This document shows, piece after piece, positions 49,223 to 56,781 of a stretch of 64,000 nt of DNA (position 1 is the first letter of the stretch; every line of letters begins with the position of its first letter). Under the pieces are notes generated by a model. The model worked only from the letters and a program-made list of their open reading frames with translations. It was not told the origin of the DNA and did not search any database. Source of the stretch: an uncultured bacterium (lineage in GTDB: Bacteria; Planctomycetota; Phycisphaerae; Phycisphaerales; SM1A02). The stretch lies in the NCBI GenBank assembly GCA_903891095.1, contig CAITDI010000022.1:1-64000 (forward strand), given 5' to 3'. The translations under genes and the position numbers were made by a program.

Positions 49223-51202
49223 ATGGGCGCAATTCCTGCCAACCTCGCGCGTGTGCCGAACGCTTTGGCGTCGAGAATTGCGCTCAGCGGCGTGCAGAAG
49301 GCCAATCGCGACCTTCTGCTGCTGCAAGTGCAGCTCGCAGCCGGCAAGGCCTTCACCCGTCCGTCTGAGAACGCCATCGGCGCTTCGACGGTCACCGTCC
49401 TCGATGACGCGATCGAGCGCCGCAACCAGCGCGGTCGCAATCTCTCGCAGGCGGACGCCACGCTGAACTCCCTCGACGGCGCGATCGGCGACGTCACCGA
49501 TCTCCTGCAGGAGGCCCGAGGTATCGGTCTCTCGCAGATCGGCGTGGGTAGCGATGCGACCACCCGCCGCAACCAGGCGTCGGTGATCGACTCGATGCTC
49601 AACTCGATGCTGTCGATCGCCAACCGCGACCTCAACGGCATTCACTTCTTCGGCGGCGACCAGCATGTGTCCGAGCCGTTTGGCTCGCTGCTCGGCGGCG
49701 TGCGCTATCTCGGCGGCGGGCAGGGCATGCGTGCGGACCTCGGTCTCGCGTCGGATGTCCGCGTCACCACCAGCGGCGAGGCGGCCTTTGGCGCGCTCTC
49801 TGGCCGTGTGCAGGGTGATCACGATCTGGATCCCTCGATGACGCTCGGCACGCGCCTGAGCGACCTTCGCGGCGCCAACGGCCGAGGCGTGCAGCCGGGC
49901 ATGGTCGAGATCGATGTCAACGGCACGATCACGCAGGTCGATCTCTCGTCGGCGGACTCGATCGCCGACGTGATCACCGGTCTCTCCACCGCCATTGGCG
50001 CCATCGATCCCGGTGCGACGGTCGGTATCGACCCCGCGACTGGCGACCGCATCGCGATCACGCCGTCAGCTGGCGTCAATGTCATCATCCGCGATTCGAA
50101 CTCCGCGACCACCGCGGGCGATCTCGGGCTTTCGGGCAGCTACTCGGGCGGACTGACTTCGACCGGCGCGGATCTCGATCCCAAGCTCACCGAACTCACG
50201 CGGCTCGACTCGGTCACGGGCGTCACCGTCCCGATGAGCGAGATCGTGATCCGCAACGGCGGCCAGACGCGGCGCATCGACCTCTCGCAGGTCGTGACCG
50301 TGCAGGACTTCCAGAACGCCGTTGCCTCCGCAGGCCTCGGCGTGCGCGTCGAGATCGCGGCCGACGGACGCCGCCTCAACGTGCGCAACGAACTCTCCGG
50401 CGCCTCGATGTCCGTCGAGGACCTCGGCGGAACCAGCGCGCAAGAGCTGGGAATTCGCTCCTTCACTGGCACGACGAGCCTCGCGGACTTCAACGAAGGC
50501 CGCGGCGTCCGCAAGGTGAGCGGGGCGGTCGATCCGCTCACGGGCCTGCCTGATCCCGCGGCGAACCGCGACATCAAGGTGACCGTCAAGGACGGCCGGT
50601 CGTTCGAGATCGACATCGACGGCGCGGCGACCGTCCAGGACGTCCTCGACAAGATCAACGCGGCCGCTGCCGCCGCCGGCGTCACGCCCGCGGAGTTCAC
50701 CGCGCAGCTCGCCGGCACCGGCAACGGCATCGAACTCGTCGACTCGACCGTGGGCACCACGCTCAAGATCGAGGACATCAACAACAGCGGCACCGCGACC
50801 GACCTCGGCATCGCGGGGCAGACCACTGCGGCAAGTTTCGTCGGTACCGACCACGCAACAGTTGCCGTGGACAGCGTGTTTTCGCACCTCATCACGCTCC
50901 GGGACGCGCTCAACCGCAACGACGAGCGTGGCATCGAGTTTGCGACAGGGAAGCTGGAATCCGACCTCACCCGCGCCTCCGAGGCGCGTGCCGACGTCGG
51001 AGTCCGCTCGCAGCGCGTTGCCGACGCAACGAACCGCGAGCAGGAGCTTGGCATTCAGGACATGGCGTTGCGATCGAGCATCCAGGATCTCGACTTCACC
51101 TCCGCGGCCACGCGATTCTCCAACCTGCAGCAGCAGCTGCAGGCGGGCCTCGTGGGCGCATCGAAGTCGGTGAACATGAGCCTGCTCGACTTCCTCCGCT
51201 AG
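49223..51202 (+). CDS. flgL: Hook-filament junction protein FlgL, expanded
   Basis: A 659-residue FlgL (HAP3), twice the enteric length (317). The N-terminal D0/D1 helix (VPNALASRIALSGVQKANRDLLLLQ, LAAGKAF..PSENA) and the C-terminal helix (SSIQDLDFTSAATRFSNLQQQLQAG) are intact. The extra length is a beta-rich centre with about three flagellin-IN-like repeats (for example VEIDVNGTITQVDLSSADSI and VTVKDGRSFEIDIDGAATV). It forms the second junction ring. It heads the cluster flgL-fliW-csrA-fliC1-fliC2. The 18-bp repeat lies in its leader. Confidence 0.92.
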   Translation: MGAIPANLARVPNALASRIALSGVQKANRDLLLLQVQLAAGKAFTRPSENAIGASTVTVLDDAIERRNQRGRNLSQADATLNSLDGAIGDVTDLLQEARGIGLSQIGVGSDATTRRNQASVIDSMLNSMLSIANRDLNGIHFFGGDQHVSEPFGSLLGGVRYLGGGQGMRADLGLASDVRVTTSGEAAFGALSGRVQGDHDLDPSMTLGTRLSDLRGANGRGVQPGMVEIDVNGTITQVDLSSADSIADVITGLSTAIGAIDPGATVGIDPATGDRIAITPSAGVNVIIRDSNSATTAGDLGLSGSYSGGLTSTGADLDPKLTELTRLDSVTGVTVPMSEIVIRNGGQTRRIDLSQVVTVQDFQNAVASAGLGVRVEIAADGRRLNVRNELSGASMSVEDLGGTSAQELGIRSFTGTTSLADFNEGRGVRKVSGAVDPLTGLPDPAANRDIKVTVKDGRSFEIDIDGAATVQDVLDKINAAAAAAGVTPAEFTAQLAGTGNGIELVDSTVGTTLKIEDINNSGTATDLGIAGQTTAASFVGTDHATVAVDSVFSHLITLRDALNRNDERGIEFATGKLESDLTRASEARADVGVRSQRVADATNREQELGIQDMALRSSIQDLDFTSAATRFSNLQQQLQAGLVGASKSVNMSLLDFLR

Positions 51203-51337
51203 CAAGTGATCAACAACCCGCGCGGTTGCGCGGATACCAACCGGAGGCTCGGCCCCTCCGCGCGGAACCAGGGACGGAGCCCGACCGGCATGGATGCCGG
51301 ACTCCAAGGATTGGAAAGGCCGAATGGAGCACCCGAT

Positions 51338-51784
51338 ATGCTGATCCAGACCACGCGCTTTGGCCCTGTCGACATCGACGAGTCGCGCATCATCGATTTC
51401 CCGGCGGGACTGCTGGGATTCTCGAGCTACAAGAAGTTCGCACTGCTGCAGCCCGACGACAACGGAGTCTTCTTCTGGCTCCAGTCGACGGACAGCGCTG
51501 ACCTCGCCTTCGTCGTCACCGACCCGGCGCTCTGGCTGCCGGACTTCCAGGCCAACATCCGCAAGGAGCAGATGGAAGAGCTCGGCCTCCGCGAGGTCAG
51601 CGACGCCCAGGTGCTCGTGATCGTCAACAAGCGCGAGCAGTCGCTCACGGCCAACCTCCAGGGCCCGCTCGTCGTGAACTCCGCCAACCGCACGGCCATG
51701 CAGCTCGTGCTCGCGGAGAAGAAGTGGTCCACCCGCCATGAGCTCGTGAAGCTCGCGGAGACCCAGGTTGCGAAGATCGCCTGA
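51338..51784 (+). CDS. fliW: Flagellar assembly factor FliW
   Basis: A 148-residue FliW. The motif IDFPAGLLGFSSYKKFALLQ near the start and the WLQS..LAFVVTDP segment are characteristic. FliW binds free flagellin and, when unoccupied, binds and inhibits CsrA, so flagellin translation follows secretion. It is directly followed by csrA and then flagellin, the order known from Bacillus and Campylobacter-type circuits. The start MLIQTTRFGPV was chosen by family; an extension to 51206 is not supported. A GGAG lies 8-12 bases upstream. Confidence 0.93.
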   Translation: MLIQTTRFGPVDIDESRIIDFPAGLLGFSSYKKFALLQPDDNGVFFWLQSTDSADLAFVVTDPALWLPDFQANIRKEQMEELGLREVSDAQVLVIVNKREQSLTANLQGPLVVNSANRTAMQLVLAEKKWSTRHELVKLAETQVAKIA

Positions 51785-51841
51785 CCGCAAGGTCGGCGAG
51801 AGCGCGTCGAGATGGATGACGTGCCGGCCTATGCCGGCGTG

Positions 51842-51884
51842 ACACGGATGGACTCTAACGGGCACGGAAGCCCAACAAGGAAGG
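51842..51884 (+). promoter_or_regulatory. Cluster of CsrA-type sites in the csrA leader
   Basis: Three ANGGA motifs occur: ACACGGATG (51842-51850), close to the CsrA consensus; CACGGAAG (51863-51870); and ACAAGGAAGG (51875-51884), overlapping the Shine-Dalgarno sequence. A GCCGGC-CTAT-GCCGGC hairpin precedes them (51823-51838). The layout suggests translational autoregulation of csrA. Confidence 0.55.
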
Positions 51885-51894
51885 AGCCCGCAAC

Positions 51895-52206
51895 ATGCTG
51901 GTGCTCTCCAGACAGATCGATGAAACGATCATGATCGGCGACGATGTCGAGCTGACGATCGTGGACATCAGAGGCGACAAGGTGCGGATCGGCATCAAGG
52001 CCCCCGCGACGGTGGCTGTGCACCGCAAAGAGGTGTACGACGCCATCAGGAATGAGAACCAGCAGGCCGCGGCTTTCCGCGGTGAGCTCGGTTCGCTCCG
52101 CCCGCGTGGGAGTACGCGCGGTGCGAAGGCCACGACAGGTGGGACGGTCCTGCCTGCTGCCGCGAAGCTCGCGGCCACTCAGACGTCTAGACGCGAGACT
52201 GCCTGA
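51895..52206 (+). CDS. csrA: Carbon storage regulator CsrA with basic C-terminal tail
   Basis: A 103-residue CsrA. The core [15 protein letters not shown]...[19 protein letters not shown] is complete, including the key R44-type position (VHRKE). CsrA dimers bind GGA in RNA loops and block translation. Residues about 60-103 form an extra Arg/Thr/Ala-rich tail not usual in the family (60-75 residues). Strong AAGGAAGGAG upstream. Its place between fliW and fliC1 argues that flagellin mRNA is a main target. Confidence 0.95.
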
Positions 52207-54146: not shown

Positions 54147-55619
54147 ATGAGTCGTATCAGTTCCAACATTCCGTCGCTCATCGCTCAGCGCGTTCTGGGT
54201 AACCAGAACAAGGGTCTCGCCACGAGCCTTCAGCGCCTCGCAACCGGTACCCGCATCAACCGCGGCGCCGATGATCCGGCAGGCCTCATCGCCTCCGAGA
54301 ATCTCCGCGCCGAGAAGGCCGCGATCAACAGCGCGATCACCAACTCGCAGCGCGCCGACCAGGTCATGAACGTCGCCGAAGGTGGCCTCCAGGAAGTCTC
54401 GAACATGCTTGTCGAACTCCAGGGCCTCGTCGGCGCGACCGCCAACGAAGCAGGCGTCTCGCAGGAAGAGCGCGACGCGAATCAGCTCCAGATGGACTCG
54501 ATCCTTCAGACGATCGACCGCGTCGCCAACGCGACGAGCTTCCAGGGCACCAAGCTCCTGAACGGCAACTTCGACTACACGGTCAGCGGCCAGTCGGCCA
54601 ACCTGACGGACGTGACGATCAACGCTGCCAAGCTCTCCGACGCTGGCACCGCTCGTTCGGTCTCGGTCACCGTGCTCCAGTCTGCTCAGACCGGCGCAGT
54701 GTTCCTGTCGACCGGCGCGACCTTCGGTAACGGCGGCTCGGGCGAAGTTTCGTTCGAGATCACCGGCACCAAGGGCGTCCAGCAGTTCACCTTCGCCTCG
54801 GGCACCTCGCAGGCGAACATCCTCGCCGCGATCAACAGCTTCAAGGACTCGCTCGGCGTGTCTGCGATCCAGTCGACCGACGCTGCCCGCGTGCAGCTGA
54901 ACTCGACCGGCTACGGCTCGGATTCCTTCATCCGCGTCAAGGAGCTGTCGAACCAGAATGCGGGTACGTCCTTCATCTACGACGCGGTTGCCTCGGCAAG
55001 CGCGGTCGACGACCTCAAGGACTCCGGTCGCAACGCGACCGTCCTCATCAACGGTACCCAGGCCACTACGGACGGCCTGCGCGCCCGCGTCTCCAGCGAC
55101 GGCTTCGATGTCTCTGTGAGCATCGATGGCACGAGCGCCCTCAACGCGGTCGGTGCATCCACCACCTTCGCGATCACCAGCGGTGGCGCGAACTTCAACC
55201 TCTCGCCGTCGGTCAGCCTCGCCGGCAAGGTCTCGCTCGGTATTGAGACCGTCACCACGGGCAACCTCGGTGGCACCGCTTCGGGCTTCCTCTCCGACCT
55301 CAAGTCGGGCGGAACCGCGAACGTCCAGAACGGCGACCTCTCGAAGGCCCAGAGCATCATCGACTCGGCCATCAAGCAGGTCTCCAGCCTCCGCGGCCGC
55401 CTCGGTGCGTTCCAGAAGAACGTCGTCGGTTCGACCATCTCGAGCCTCGGCGTCGCCCTTGAGAACACCACGGCAGCTGAGAGCGCCATCCGCGATACCG
55501 ACTTCGCGTCGGAAACCGCGAGCATGACCCGCAATCAGATCCTGTCGCAGGCAGCGACCCAGTCGCTCGCCCTCGCGAACAGCGCCCCGCAGTCGATCCT
55601 CTCGCTCCTCCGCGGCTAA
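54147..55619 (+). CDS. fliC: Flagellin 2
   Basis: A 490-residue flagellin close in layout to flagellin 1 (shared QSAQTG.xFLS, DDPAGLI and RDTDFA(A/S)ETA..TR motifs) but clearly diverged. Codon choice looks more biased toward GGT, ACC and CTC than in neighbouring genes, as expected for an abundant protein. D0 helices at both ends are complete. It has its own leader and terminator, so it can be regulated separately from flagellin 1. Confidence 0.95.
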   Translation: MSRISSNIPSLIAQRVLGNQNKGLATSLQRLATGTRINRGADDPAGLIASENLRAEKAAINSAITNSQRADQVMNVAEGGLQEVSNMLVELQGLVGATANEAGVSQEERDANQLQMDSILQTIDRVANATSFQGTKLLNGNFDYTVSGQSANLTDVTINAAKLSDAGTARSVSVTVLQSAQTGAVFLSTGATFGNGGSGEVSFEITGTKGVQQFTFASGTSQANILAAINSFKDSLGVSAIQSTDAARVQLNSTGYGSDSFIRVKELSNQNAGTSFIYDAVASASAVDDLKDSGRNATVLINGTQATTDGLRARVSSDGFDVSVSIDGTSALNAVGASTTFAITSGGANFNLSPSVSLAGKVSLGIETVTTGNLGGTASGFLSDLKSGGTANVQNGDLSKAQSIIDSAIKQVSSLRGRLGAFQKNVVGSTISSLGVALENTTAAESAIRDTDFASETASMTRNQILSQAATQSLALANSAPQSILSLLRG

Positions 55620-55686
55620 ACACCCGGACAGCGAGGGGCGGAGGAGCCCCGACGGTTCTCCGAAGGGGTACAACACGAGAAAGAGG

Positions 55687-55720
55687 GGGCGGCCCGCAGG
55701 GGCCGCCCCTTTCTGTTTTT
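55687..55720 (+). terminator. Intrinsic terminator after flagellin 2
   Basis: A perfect 10-bp stem (55687-55696 with 55701-55710), loop GCAG, followed by TTTCTGTTTT. Its T-tract overlaps the promoter elements of the next transcript. Confidence 0.92.
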
Positions 55721-55748: not shown

Positions 55749-55885
55749 ACGACCGTTGGTCGCCGATATTTGCGGTCGCTGGGACAAATCTTCGGTGTTT
55801 TCACCAGATTGTCCTCGCCTCGCGCAGAACTCAGAGCATTGTCACTACTGGAGGGAGGGTCCCTCAAAGGGAGAGAGACCCTCAC

Positions 55886-56203
55886 ATGTTTGTAGAACGT
55901 GGAACCGCTGCGCGGCAAATGTCGCGTGGCAAAACTGCCTGGACTGTCCAGGTAGGAAATGGGGCATGGCGCCTCATGCAGTCCGCTGCAAATCGCCATG
56001 CGAAGCTTTTGCTCATTGTGGCAGTTTCACTGCCGGTGAGCGCGATCGGGCTGGGCGCAGGATCGCTCCTGAACTCAGCGCACGGTCAGAGTGAGTCCAA
56101 CGCGGTCGTTTCGTCCGTGCAGGAGCAATCCTCGCGCGTCCGCAGCGAGCCCATGGTGACCGGAGCTGCGATGCATGTCGCACTCTTCGTCCCGCGCAAC
56201 TGA
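55886..56203 (+). CDS. Small putative membrane protein
   Basis: A 105-residue ORF with one hydrophobic helix (LLLIVAVSLPVSAIGLGAG, about residues 42-60) and a polar C-terminus. The start ATG has GGGAGAGAGA upstream at Shine-Dalgarno distance. The leader (55745-55885) folds well: GGACAAATC near 55785 can pair with GATTGTCC near 55805, and a GAGGGT/ACCCTC hairpin with a TCCCTCAAAGGGA core precedes the start codon and carries several GGA. Codon use is less G+C-biased than in neighbours, so the ORF is uncertain. No family recognised. Confidence 0.45.
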   Translation: MFVERGTAARQMSRGKTAWTVQVGNGAWRLMQSAANRHAKLLLIVAVSLPVSAIGLGAGSLLNSAHGQSESNAVVSSVQEQSSRVRSEPMVTGAAMHVALFVPRN

Positions 56204-56540
56204 GGCTGTCTGGACAACAGACCTCGGTGATGGACAGCTCCGGAGGTTGGGAGATAGTCCAAAAGGACGTCCTTGCACTCGCTGTAAGGACACGACGGAT
56301 AAGACAGGGACAACTGGGACTCACATACTTAGCGACTCCAGGCTCAGGGACAATTTGCCTGGACGTCTTCTCCGAGGGAGGGACTCGTCGCGAGCCGCAA
56401 GGCGCCGCGCTACAAGAACCCGAAGAGAAAACTATGGAGTGTCCGTCGTATCCGGATCAAGGCGTGGGACCGCCGAGATCCGACTCCCAAATCTCGAATC
56501 GAGGCTCCGCTGGTTTCCAGCGGGGCCTCGGTTCTTTTTA
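56204..56540 (+). ncRNA. Candidate CsrA-sequestering RNA (CsrB/RsmZ-like)
   Basis: From 56206 to 56470 I count 16 GGA triplets in 265 bases, several times the density of ordinary sequence. At least six lie in hairpin loops: CTGT-CTGGACA-ACAG (56206-56220), CTCC-GGAGGTTG-GGAG (56238-56253), CAG-GGACAA-CTG (56305-56316), CCAGGC-(13-base loop with AGGGA)-GCCTGG (56338-56362), CGAG-GGAGGGA-CTCG (56373-56387) and GGCG-TGGGAC-CGCC (56461-56474). An intrinsic terminator closes the segment. This is the architecture of CsrB/RsmZ RNAs, which titrate CsrA. csrA lies 4.3 kb upstream. The 5' end is not defined; the transcript may begin at the 55712-55748 promoter. Confidence 0.5.
56500..56540 (+). terminator. 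Strong intrinsic terminator of the GGA-rich RNA
   Basis: A 14-bp stem (56500-56513 with 56517-56530, one wobble), loop TTT, followed by GTTCTTTTT. It closes the GGA-rich segment. Confidence 0.92.
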
Positions 56541-56578
56541 CTGCCTCGGTTCTTTTTACTGCCTCGGTTCTTTTTAGT
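56525..56578 (+). repeat. 18-bp triplication of a terminator tail
   Basis: GCCTCGGTTCTTTTTACT is repeated at 56525, 56543 and 56561 (last copy ends AGT). The unit is the right arm end plus the T-tract of the terminator at 56500-56540. The rest of the gap to 56781 shows only a GCGGTT/AACCGC hairpin near 56733-56750. Confidence 0.92.
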
Positions 56579-56781
56579 ACCTCAGGTTCCTTTGAAAGTC
56601 TTCGGCTGTCTTTGGAGCGCTTTGGCGCCATTTCGCGCAGCCGAGTGAGCTGAGTTGCCTGCCGTCCTGCCCATCGCTCTGCACTGTTTGGTCCGTCGCG
56701 CCGATGTACGTTCCGTGCCGGGGTGCGTCAGAGCGGTTGCGGTAACCGCCGACGTACGCGATTGCTCACCGGGAATCTTGC

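Follow-up and report, generated by a model that had tools for sequence, protein, structure and literature searches.

The present study asks what kind of RNA is encoded by a GGA-rich stretch lying beside fliW, csrA and two flagellin genes in 64 kb of planctomycete DNA (the whole stretch analyzed, hereafter the window), i.e. a free-standing sponge RNA of the CsrB/RsmZ type, as the initial annotation proposed, or part of something else. The stretch appears to belong to a larger whole, which looks like a short transcription unit at 55850–56540 consisting of a leader hairpin, a 105-aa open reading frame (ORF), a GGA-rich tail and a terminator. The explanation we prefer, at slightly under even odds (about 0.47), is that this unit yields a CsrA-bound, dual-function mRNA of ~690 nt with a tail that titrates CsrA alongside FliW; because copies of the CsrA signal are many on this mRNA, it may serve as a sink for CsrA besides encoding a small membrane protein.

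The locus and its small gene

Genes at the locus are arranged on the plus strand, with a flgL-like gene (from 49223) followed by fliW (51338–51784; Pfam FliW, E 6e-37), csrA (51895–52206, encoding 103 aa with an extended C-terminus; Pfam CsrA, E 1.2e-23), and, placed by gene order, the flagellins flaA (52247) and flaB (54147–55619), while an ECF sigma factor (from 56782) and then a protein kinase lie downstream of the terminator. Gene order thus upholds the proposal that fliW, csrA, two flagellins and the GGA-rich stretch share one locus, and the order flgL-fliW-csrA-flaA-flaB was intact at 9 of the 10 loci examined in the genus, the tenth (G014) lying on a contig that begins past flaB, so that the order is not covered there. 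The genome encodes both CsrA and FliW by Pfam, and its CsrA aligns with solved CsrA chains and retains L4 and R44, which we take to be RNA-contacting residues. A second CsrA-like match in the same genome (G000:C122:11644–11889) has 41% identity and a stop within the aligned stretch; two CsrA matches per genome were seen in 15 of 16 genus genomes.

Two hairpins at this locus have loops containing ANGGA, the CsrA core motif. One precedes fliW (CCGGC-AUGGAU-GCCGG, 51285–51300) and the other lies in the csrA leader region, 51785–51897 (GGGC-ACGGAA-GCCC, 51860–51873), where it is a likely CsrA autoregulation site. The AUGGAU loop before fliW, also a likely CsrA site, was found on variable stems in 9 of the 10 genomes of the genus that were read, and the ANGGA loop before csrA on a constant stem likewise in 9 of 10, with G005 the exception for both. 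Such textbook hexaloops make it likely, as far as sequence can indicate, that CsrA acts on the fliW-csrA locus. Upstream of fliW, at 51200–51340, GGA reaches 14 per 265 nt, the second-highest peak in the window.

Between flaB and the GGA-rich stretch is a small ORF (55886–56203, plus strand) that starts MFVERG, includes a hydrophobic segment and ends in VTGAAMHVALFVPRN. It has 10 orthologues of 105–191 aa in which both ends are conserved, and none of the 10 matched a Pfam or NCBIfam family. The ratio pN/pS was 0.43–0.57 among the five close genomes and 0.49–0.81 among the other five, and on these sequence comparisons we judge the ORF to be real and under purifying selection. The close group, comprising the window, G008, G009, G013 and G014, was set by ORF identity, which was 60–64% in the four closest relatives vs 37–40% in the rest.

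With an ORF profile the unit was recovered in 10 of 16 genus genomes, and the other 6 had neither a match to this profile nor a DNA match to the leader stretch. At the corresponding place, G004, G005 and G007 have a different sequence 3′ of a flagellin, and G003, G011 and G012 gave partial flagellin matches only. The unit was convincing in no genus searched outside this one; among 165 family genomes outside the genus the ORF profile gave marginal matches in 3 (E 0.006–0.01), of which two have internal stops. The genus relatives are metagenome assemblies of planctomycetes or uncultured bacteria, some from lake and pond, and two records with this locus (L122, L129) bear the title Candidatus Kuenenia stuttgartiensis, most likely through mislabelling.

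Some further features flank the unit. Just past the flaB stop is a hairpin, GGGGC-GGAGGA-GCCCC (55635–55650), and in 11 of 12 stretches read from relatives GGGCGGAGG occurs 3′ of the flagellin stop, with the 3′ arm of the hairpin variable; the one stretch without it is that of G014, whose contig starts there. In several relatives (L031, L032, L033, L034, L038) the interval from tail to ECF sigma factor holds a minus-strand ORF of 354–702 aa with an N-terminus that is sensor-like by eye, for which there is no room in the window.

GGA triplets in the tail

The tail (56204–56495) contains, within the 265 nt at 56206–56470, 16 GGA triplets, 9 of them as ANGGA, and our recount agrees with the 16 GGA first reported there. 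This is the highest GGA density per 265 nt on either strand of the window, where the plus-strand mean is 3.2 and the maximum is 16 on the plus strand and 12 on the minus. In 369,074 bases, made up of the window and 20 stretches from the same genome, one further place reached 16 GGA (L118:5013, minus strand), and it is probably coding because it is spanned by several long ORFs. Compared with dinucleotide shuffles, the window tail had a modest surplus of GGA, 16 vs 11.3 when the terminator was included (P 0.039) and 16 vs 10.4 without it (P 0.007). The 9 ANGGA compared with 2.6 expected, a count equalled in 0 of 1000 shuffles. TCC was over-represented as well (9 vs 4.7, P 0.012). Of 600 stretches of 337 nt drawn at random from the genome sample and assumed to be mostly coding, one matched the tail in accessible GGA and none in ANGGA or GGA, and no close tail was equalled in accessible GGA or ANGGA by more than 1 of the 600. 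A coding reading of the tail, through ORFs at 56175–56648 and 56227–56577, was rejected as these have no Pfam match, and stops occur in every plus-strand frame of the tails of 8 relatives except for one frame of G014.

In relatives, GGA counts cover 9 of 10 tails, that of G015 being N-masked and excluded. The post-flaB GGA maximum in the four closest starts from 10 nt before to 82 nt after the ORF end, and windows of equal or higher GGA density occur elsewhere on the loci of G008, G009 and G013. All 5 close tails were enriched for ANGGA (6–9 per tail vs 1.7–2.7 expected, P up to 0.013), and GGA itself was in significant excess in 4 of 5, G009 being the exception (P 0.09 and 0.15). In the distant tails of G001, G002, G006 and G010 neither GGA nor ANGGA was significantly enriched over shuffles. 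Motif number is thus kept only in the closest relatives. Elsewhere in the family, GGA-dense spots often precede fliW, csrA or flaB, and in other genera (L085–L101) dense GGA, up to 14 per 265 nt, was seen between two flagellins; these flaA-flaB intergenic stretches are possibly CsrA leaders of flaB.

How many of these triplets would be open to a protein depends on the fold considered. The initial annotation placed at least six GGA in hairpin loops. This stands when hairpins are taken singly, since a scan for hairpins with at least 4 pairs, at most one G-U and GGA in the loop gave 6 loop GGA across 5 hairpins, a number reached by 0.6% of 337-nt genome windows. It fails for the whole-tail fold, because the minimum-energy structure has only 3 GGA in hairpin loops, which is still above shuffles (0.6, P 0.03), as that annotation expected; 4 GGA were unpaired in this structure vs 1.3 in shuffles (P 0.015). 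Expected accessible GGA in the window tail was 6.0 of 16 vs 3.8 in shuffles (P 0.042). With unpaired probability below 0.5 for 10 of 16 GGA, and TCC in excess, several window GGA are predicted to sit in stems, which speaks against a sponge. The Escherichia coli csrB control has more accessible GGA, 17.5 of 22 expected vs 7.8 in its shuffles, compared with the 6.0 of the window tail.

Expected accessible GGA exceeded shuffles in all 9 tails counted (P 0.000–0.092), at 6.2–9.0 vs 2.6–4.7 in G008, G009, G013 and G014 (P up to 0.008) and at borderline significance in the four distant tails (P 0.017–0.092). The number of GGA for which open is favored over paired was not significantly high in G009, G001, G006 or G010 (P 0.15–0.38). 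In minimum-energy folds of the four close relatives, hairpin-loop GGA never significantly exceeded shuffles (P 0.16–0.50) and unpaired GGA significantly exceeded them in G008 alone, and the hairpin scan found 1–4 loop GGA per tail in relatives. The many-hairpin layout of the window tail is therefore not kept in relatives, but two of its hairpins are.

Conserved hairpins and two alternative explanations

The leader hairpin (55850–55883) ends 2 nt 5′ of the ATG and presents the loop AAAGGGA (55866–55872) on an outer helix of GAGGGUC (55855–55861) and GACCCUC (55877–55883) with an inner CUC/GAG. Besides the window, 9 relatives in the genus have it, G015 in a divergent version; a search of the contig database gave 8 matches, and among 397 sampled genomes of the class it was found in 3, all within this genus. 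The loop is AAAGGGA or longer, and 100% of cells were paired across 8 sequences (6 distinct), a count made without G015 and without the window, whose leader MAFFT put two bases out of register. A single pair is exchanged, being U-A in one group vs A-U in the other. In 10 of 10 genomes the GGGA ends 13–16 nt 5′ of the ATG, and the hairpin would thus cover the ribosome site.

Two hairpins of the tail are also conserved. H1 spans the stop codon (56202–56225; GAGG-CUGU / ACAG-(A)-CCUC) with the loop CUGGACA (56210–56216), and was seen only within the close group, where the loop is identical in 5 of 5 genomes while the stems differ. Five of its 6 pairs show an exchange of both partners, each in a single sequence, and its covariation score was 0.533 vs 0.182 in shuffles, with 0 of 500 as high, while permutation of whole arms gave only P 0.04–0.05. 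The last hairpin before the terminator (56453–56482) has GGCG-UGGGAC-CGCC (56461–56474) inside CGGAUC/GAUCCG, and at this place a GGA-loop hairpin was seen in 9 of 10 genomes, G001 being the one where it was not found, with 35 of 36 inner cells paired and a whole-arm permutation P of 0.0005. Pairing percentages are flattered because the hairpins were picked by eye before counting, and the exchanged pairs are the stronger evidence. Covariation in relatives, which had been named as a check on the initial annotation, is thus seen as stem-pair exchanges at H1 and the last hairpin. Loops of tail hairpins are mostly CUGGACA or CGGGAC rather than ANGGA, and are less canonical than the loops before fliW and csrA.

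An alternative explanation could be an ordinary CsrA target, in which CsrA bound to the leader and 3′ UTR controls translation or stability of this mRNA itself, with little titration. This would account for the observation that the leader hairpin is the best-conserved piece and adjoins the start codon, that just three GGA-loop hairpins (leader, H1 and last) were found conserved, and that ANGGA is scarce in distant tails (2–4). Control in cis needs few sites, however, yet the close group keeps 12–16 GGA over 270–361 nt, and strand asymmetry of GGA is strong in the four close relatives, with GGA:TCC of 13:1, 14:1, 16:2 and 16:3 (16:11 in the window), such that we regard this explanation as rather unlikely.

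It could also be that the tail is a structured 3′ UTR and terminator region with no CsrA role at all, its GGA reflecting purine-rich sequence or another RNA-binding protein. The modest GGA excess in the window (P 0.007–0.039) and its lack of significance in G009 and the four distant tails are what this would predict, and in most conserved tail loops the −2 position is not A. Over the five close tails, which are related and non-independent, A does stand at −2 of 37 of 72 GGA vs 24% A overall; GGA remain in loops as stems change; and ANGGA hexaloops precede fliW and csrA at the same locus. An absence of any CsrA role is improbable on this evidence.

Predicted transcript ends and comparison with known CsrA antagonists

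The strong terminator that the initial annotation placed at 56500–56540 was recovered in a scan of the window as an 18-pair stem at 56496–56534 followed by TTTTT, the whole at 56496–56539 on the plus strand. Tails of G008, G009, G013 and G014 end, by folding, in a very stable hairpin (−34.9 to −40.0 kcal/mol) and a short T-run; a pattern scan flagged none of these four, since G008 and G013 have a bulge or mismatch and G009 and G014 have under five T, and terminators of the other five relatives were judged by eye. In the window GCCTCGGTTCTTTTTA is repeated three times in tandem (56525, 56543 and 56561; span 56525–56576), the first copy inside the terminator, and the copies yield several T-runs.

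For the 5′ end, a promoter-like box of TGGAC(A/T) or TTGAC(C/G), 16 nt, and (T/C)ANNTT, scoring 8–9 of 12, was found in 8 of 10 genomes and ends 6–7 nt 5′ of the leader. The window and G015 have nothing similar before the leader (best 7), and another window site, at 55719, scores 10 of 12. The shared box suggests that the RNA probably begins at the leader hairpin (55850). Neither in the window nor in four relatives did a scan in the transcribed direction find a sigma-70-like site from ORF start to tail. With a selected ORF upstream and no such site in between, the tail resembles an mRNA 3′ UTR that follows a coding sequence, and we infer that the RNA of the initial annotation is this 3′ UTR.

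The proposal of a CsrB/RsmZ-type gene was not supported, as the stretch comes directly after the stop of an ORF under selection and has no Rfam match. At gathering score the whole window had no Csr/Rsm match; on 55800–56600 with E up to 10 there were 8 weak matches, with no Csr/Rsm family among them; and RF00018 and RF00166 found nothing in the window's own genome, while the CsrB control was detected in E. coli. Membership in the CsrB/RsmZ families was not supported, for want of such a match. That a CsrB/RsmZ-like RNA is nonetheless released from, or started within, the ORF 3′ end gains support from the discreteness of the GGA-rich stretch, which has a terminator to itself, from a tail fold more stable than shuffles (z −7.2) and from a precedent in RsmW (PMC7821165, available text), but is quite improbable given that the sole plus-strand promoter-like site past the leader in the window (56231–56258, 9 of 12) lies inside the tail, that a site occurs mid-tail in G008 and nowhere in the tails of G009, G013 and G014, and that the site common to 8 of 10 genomes lies 5′ of the leader.

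As part of a dual-function mRNA, the tail possibly works like CsrB/RsmZ RNAs. It resembles CsrB/CsrC and RsmX/Y/Z in having a terminator and, in close tails, 13–16 GGA in 320–406 nt (an available table gives 22 GGA for CsrB and 14 in a second row, taken as CsrC; PMC10729762), and differs in apparently lying within a coding mRNA. Among the closest likenesses in kind is Campylobacter jejuni flaA mRNA, described in the available text of PMC4894983 as a target that also titrates CsrA, along with FliW; it too is a coding flagellar-locus RNA of a FliW organism with GGA hairpin loops in its leader, and our unit has an ORF under selection and a GGA leader hairpin near the ribosome-binding site, with CsrA and FliW encoded in the same genome. 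On what is available of that source, flaA encodes flagellin and does titrate CsrA, whereas here the product would be a small membrane protein, GGA are mostly in a long 3′ UTR, and titration is what we would infer. RsmW of Pseudomonas aeruginosa, by the available text an RsmA sponge derived from the 3′ UTR of PA4570 (PMC7821165), would share sequestration of a CsrA-type protein by an mRNA 3′ UTR if our reading is right; set beside RsmW as described there, ours is from another phylum and has FliW encoded nearby. The Salmonella fimAICDHF leader is another CsrA-titrating untranslated region (PMC4894983, in part), in that case a 5′ UTR in a CsrB/C organism as opposed to a 3′ UTR here. According to the portions available, GGA-bearing 3′ UTR-derived RNAs were predicted by machine learning in Vibrio fischeri (PMC5568370), and 3′ UTRs recognised by CsrA are few with their role, if any, unknown (PMC7821165). 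In accessible literature on CsrA in planctomycetes, including the available texts of PMC10729762, PMC9029176 and PMC4682653, we found no CsrA-binding RNA from the phylum, nor was one found in accessible literature on planctomycete small RNA with flagellin.

The CsrA-titrating, dual-function mRNA that we prefer would operate as follows. Transcription would start at or near the GGGA-loop leader hairpin just 5′ of the start codon of the small membrane-protein gene and would end with the GGA-rich 3′ UTR and strong terminator. CsrA on the leader would repress, or time, translation of the small protein, and ANGGA motifs and GGA-loop hairpins of the tail would take up further CsrA dimers. Were the unit co-expressed with flagellar genes and its transcript abundant, free CsrA would fall, which would release the flagellin, fliW and csrA leaders and add to the effect of FliW. 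More specifically, and only tentatively, at odds well short of even, this would be a planctomycete mRNA in which a repressed small membrane-protein gene is flanked by CsrA sites on either side, and whose 3′ UTR sponge gained sites in one species group of the genus.

In the available text of PMC4682653, FliW and BarA-UvrY, which drives sponge RNAs, are strongly anti-correlated modes of CsrA control, and planctomycetes are among groups possibly using FliW. If true, a two-ended mRNA together with FliW from the same locus would constitute control of CsrA by two antagonists, one protein and one RNA, and joint action of FliW and small RNAs is stated to be undetermined in any species in the accessible part of a review (PMC7652899). 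A GGA-rich RNA beside fliW, csrA and flagellins would make that question directly testable, and, if the reading is correct, RNA control of CsrA would extend to planctomycetes, which have been thought to control CsrA by the FliW protein.
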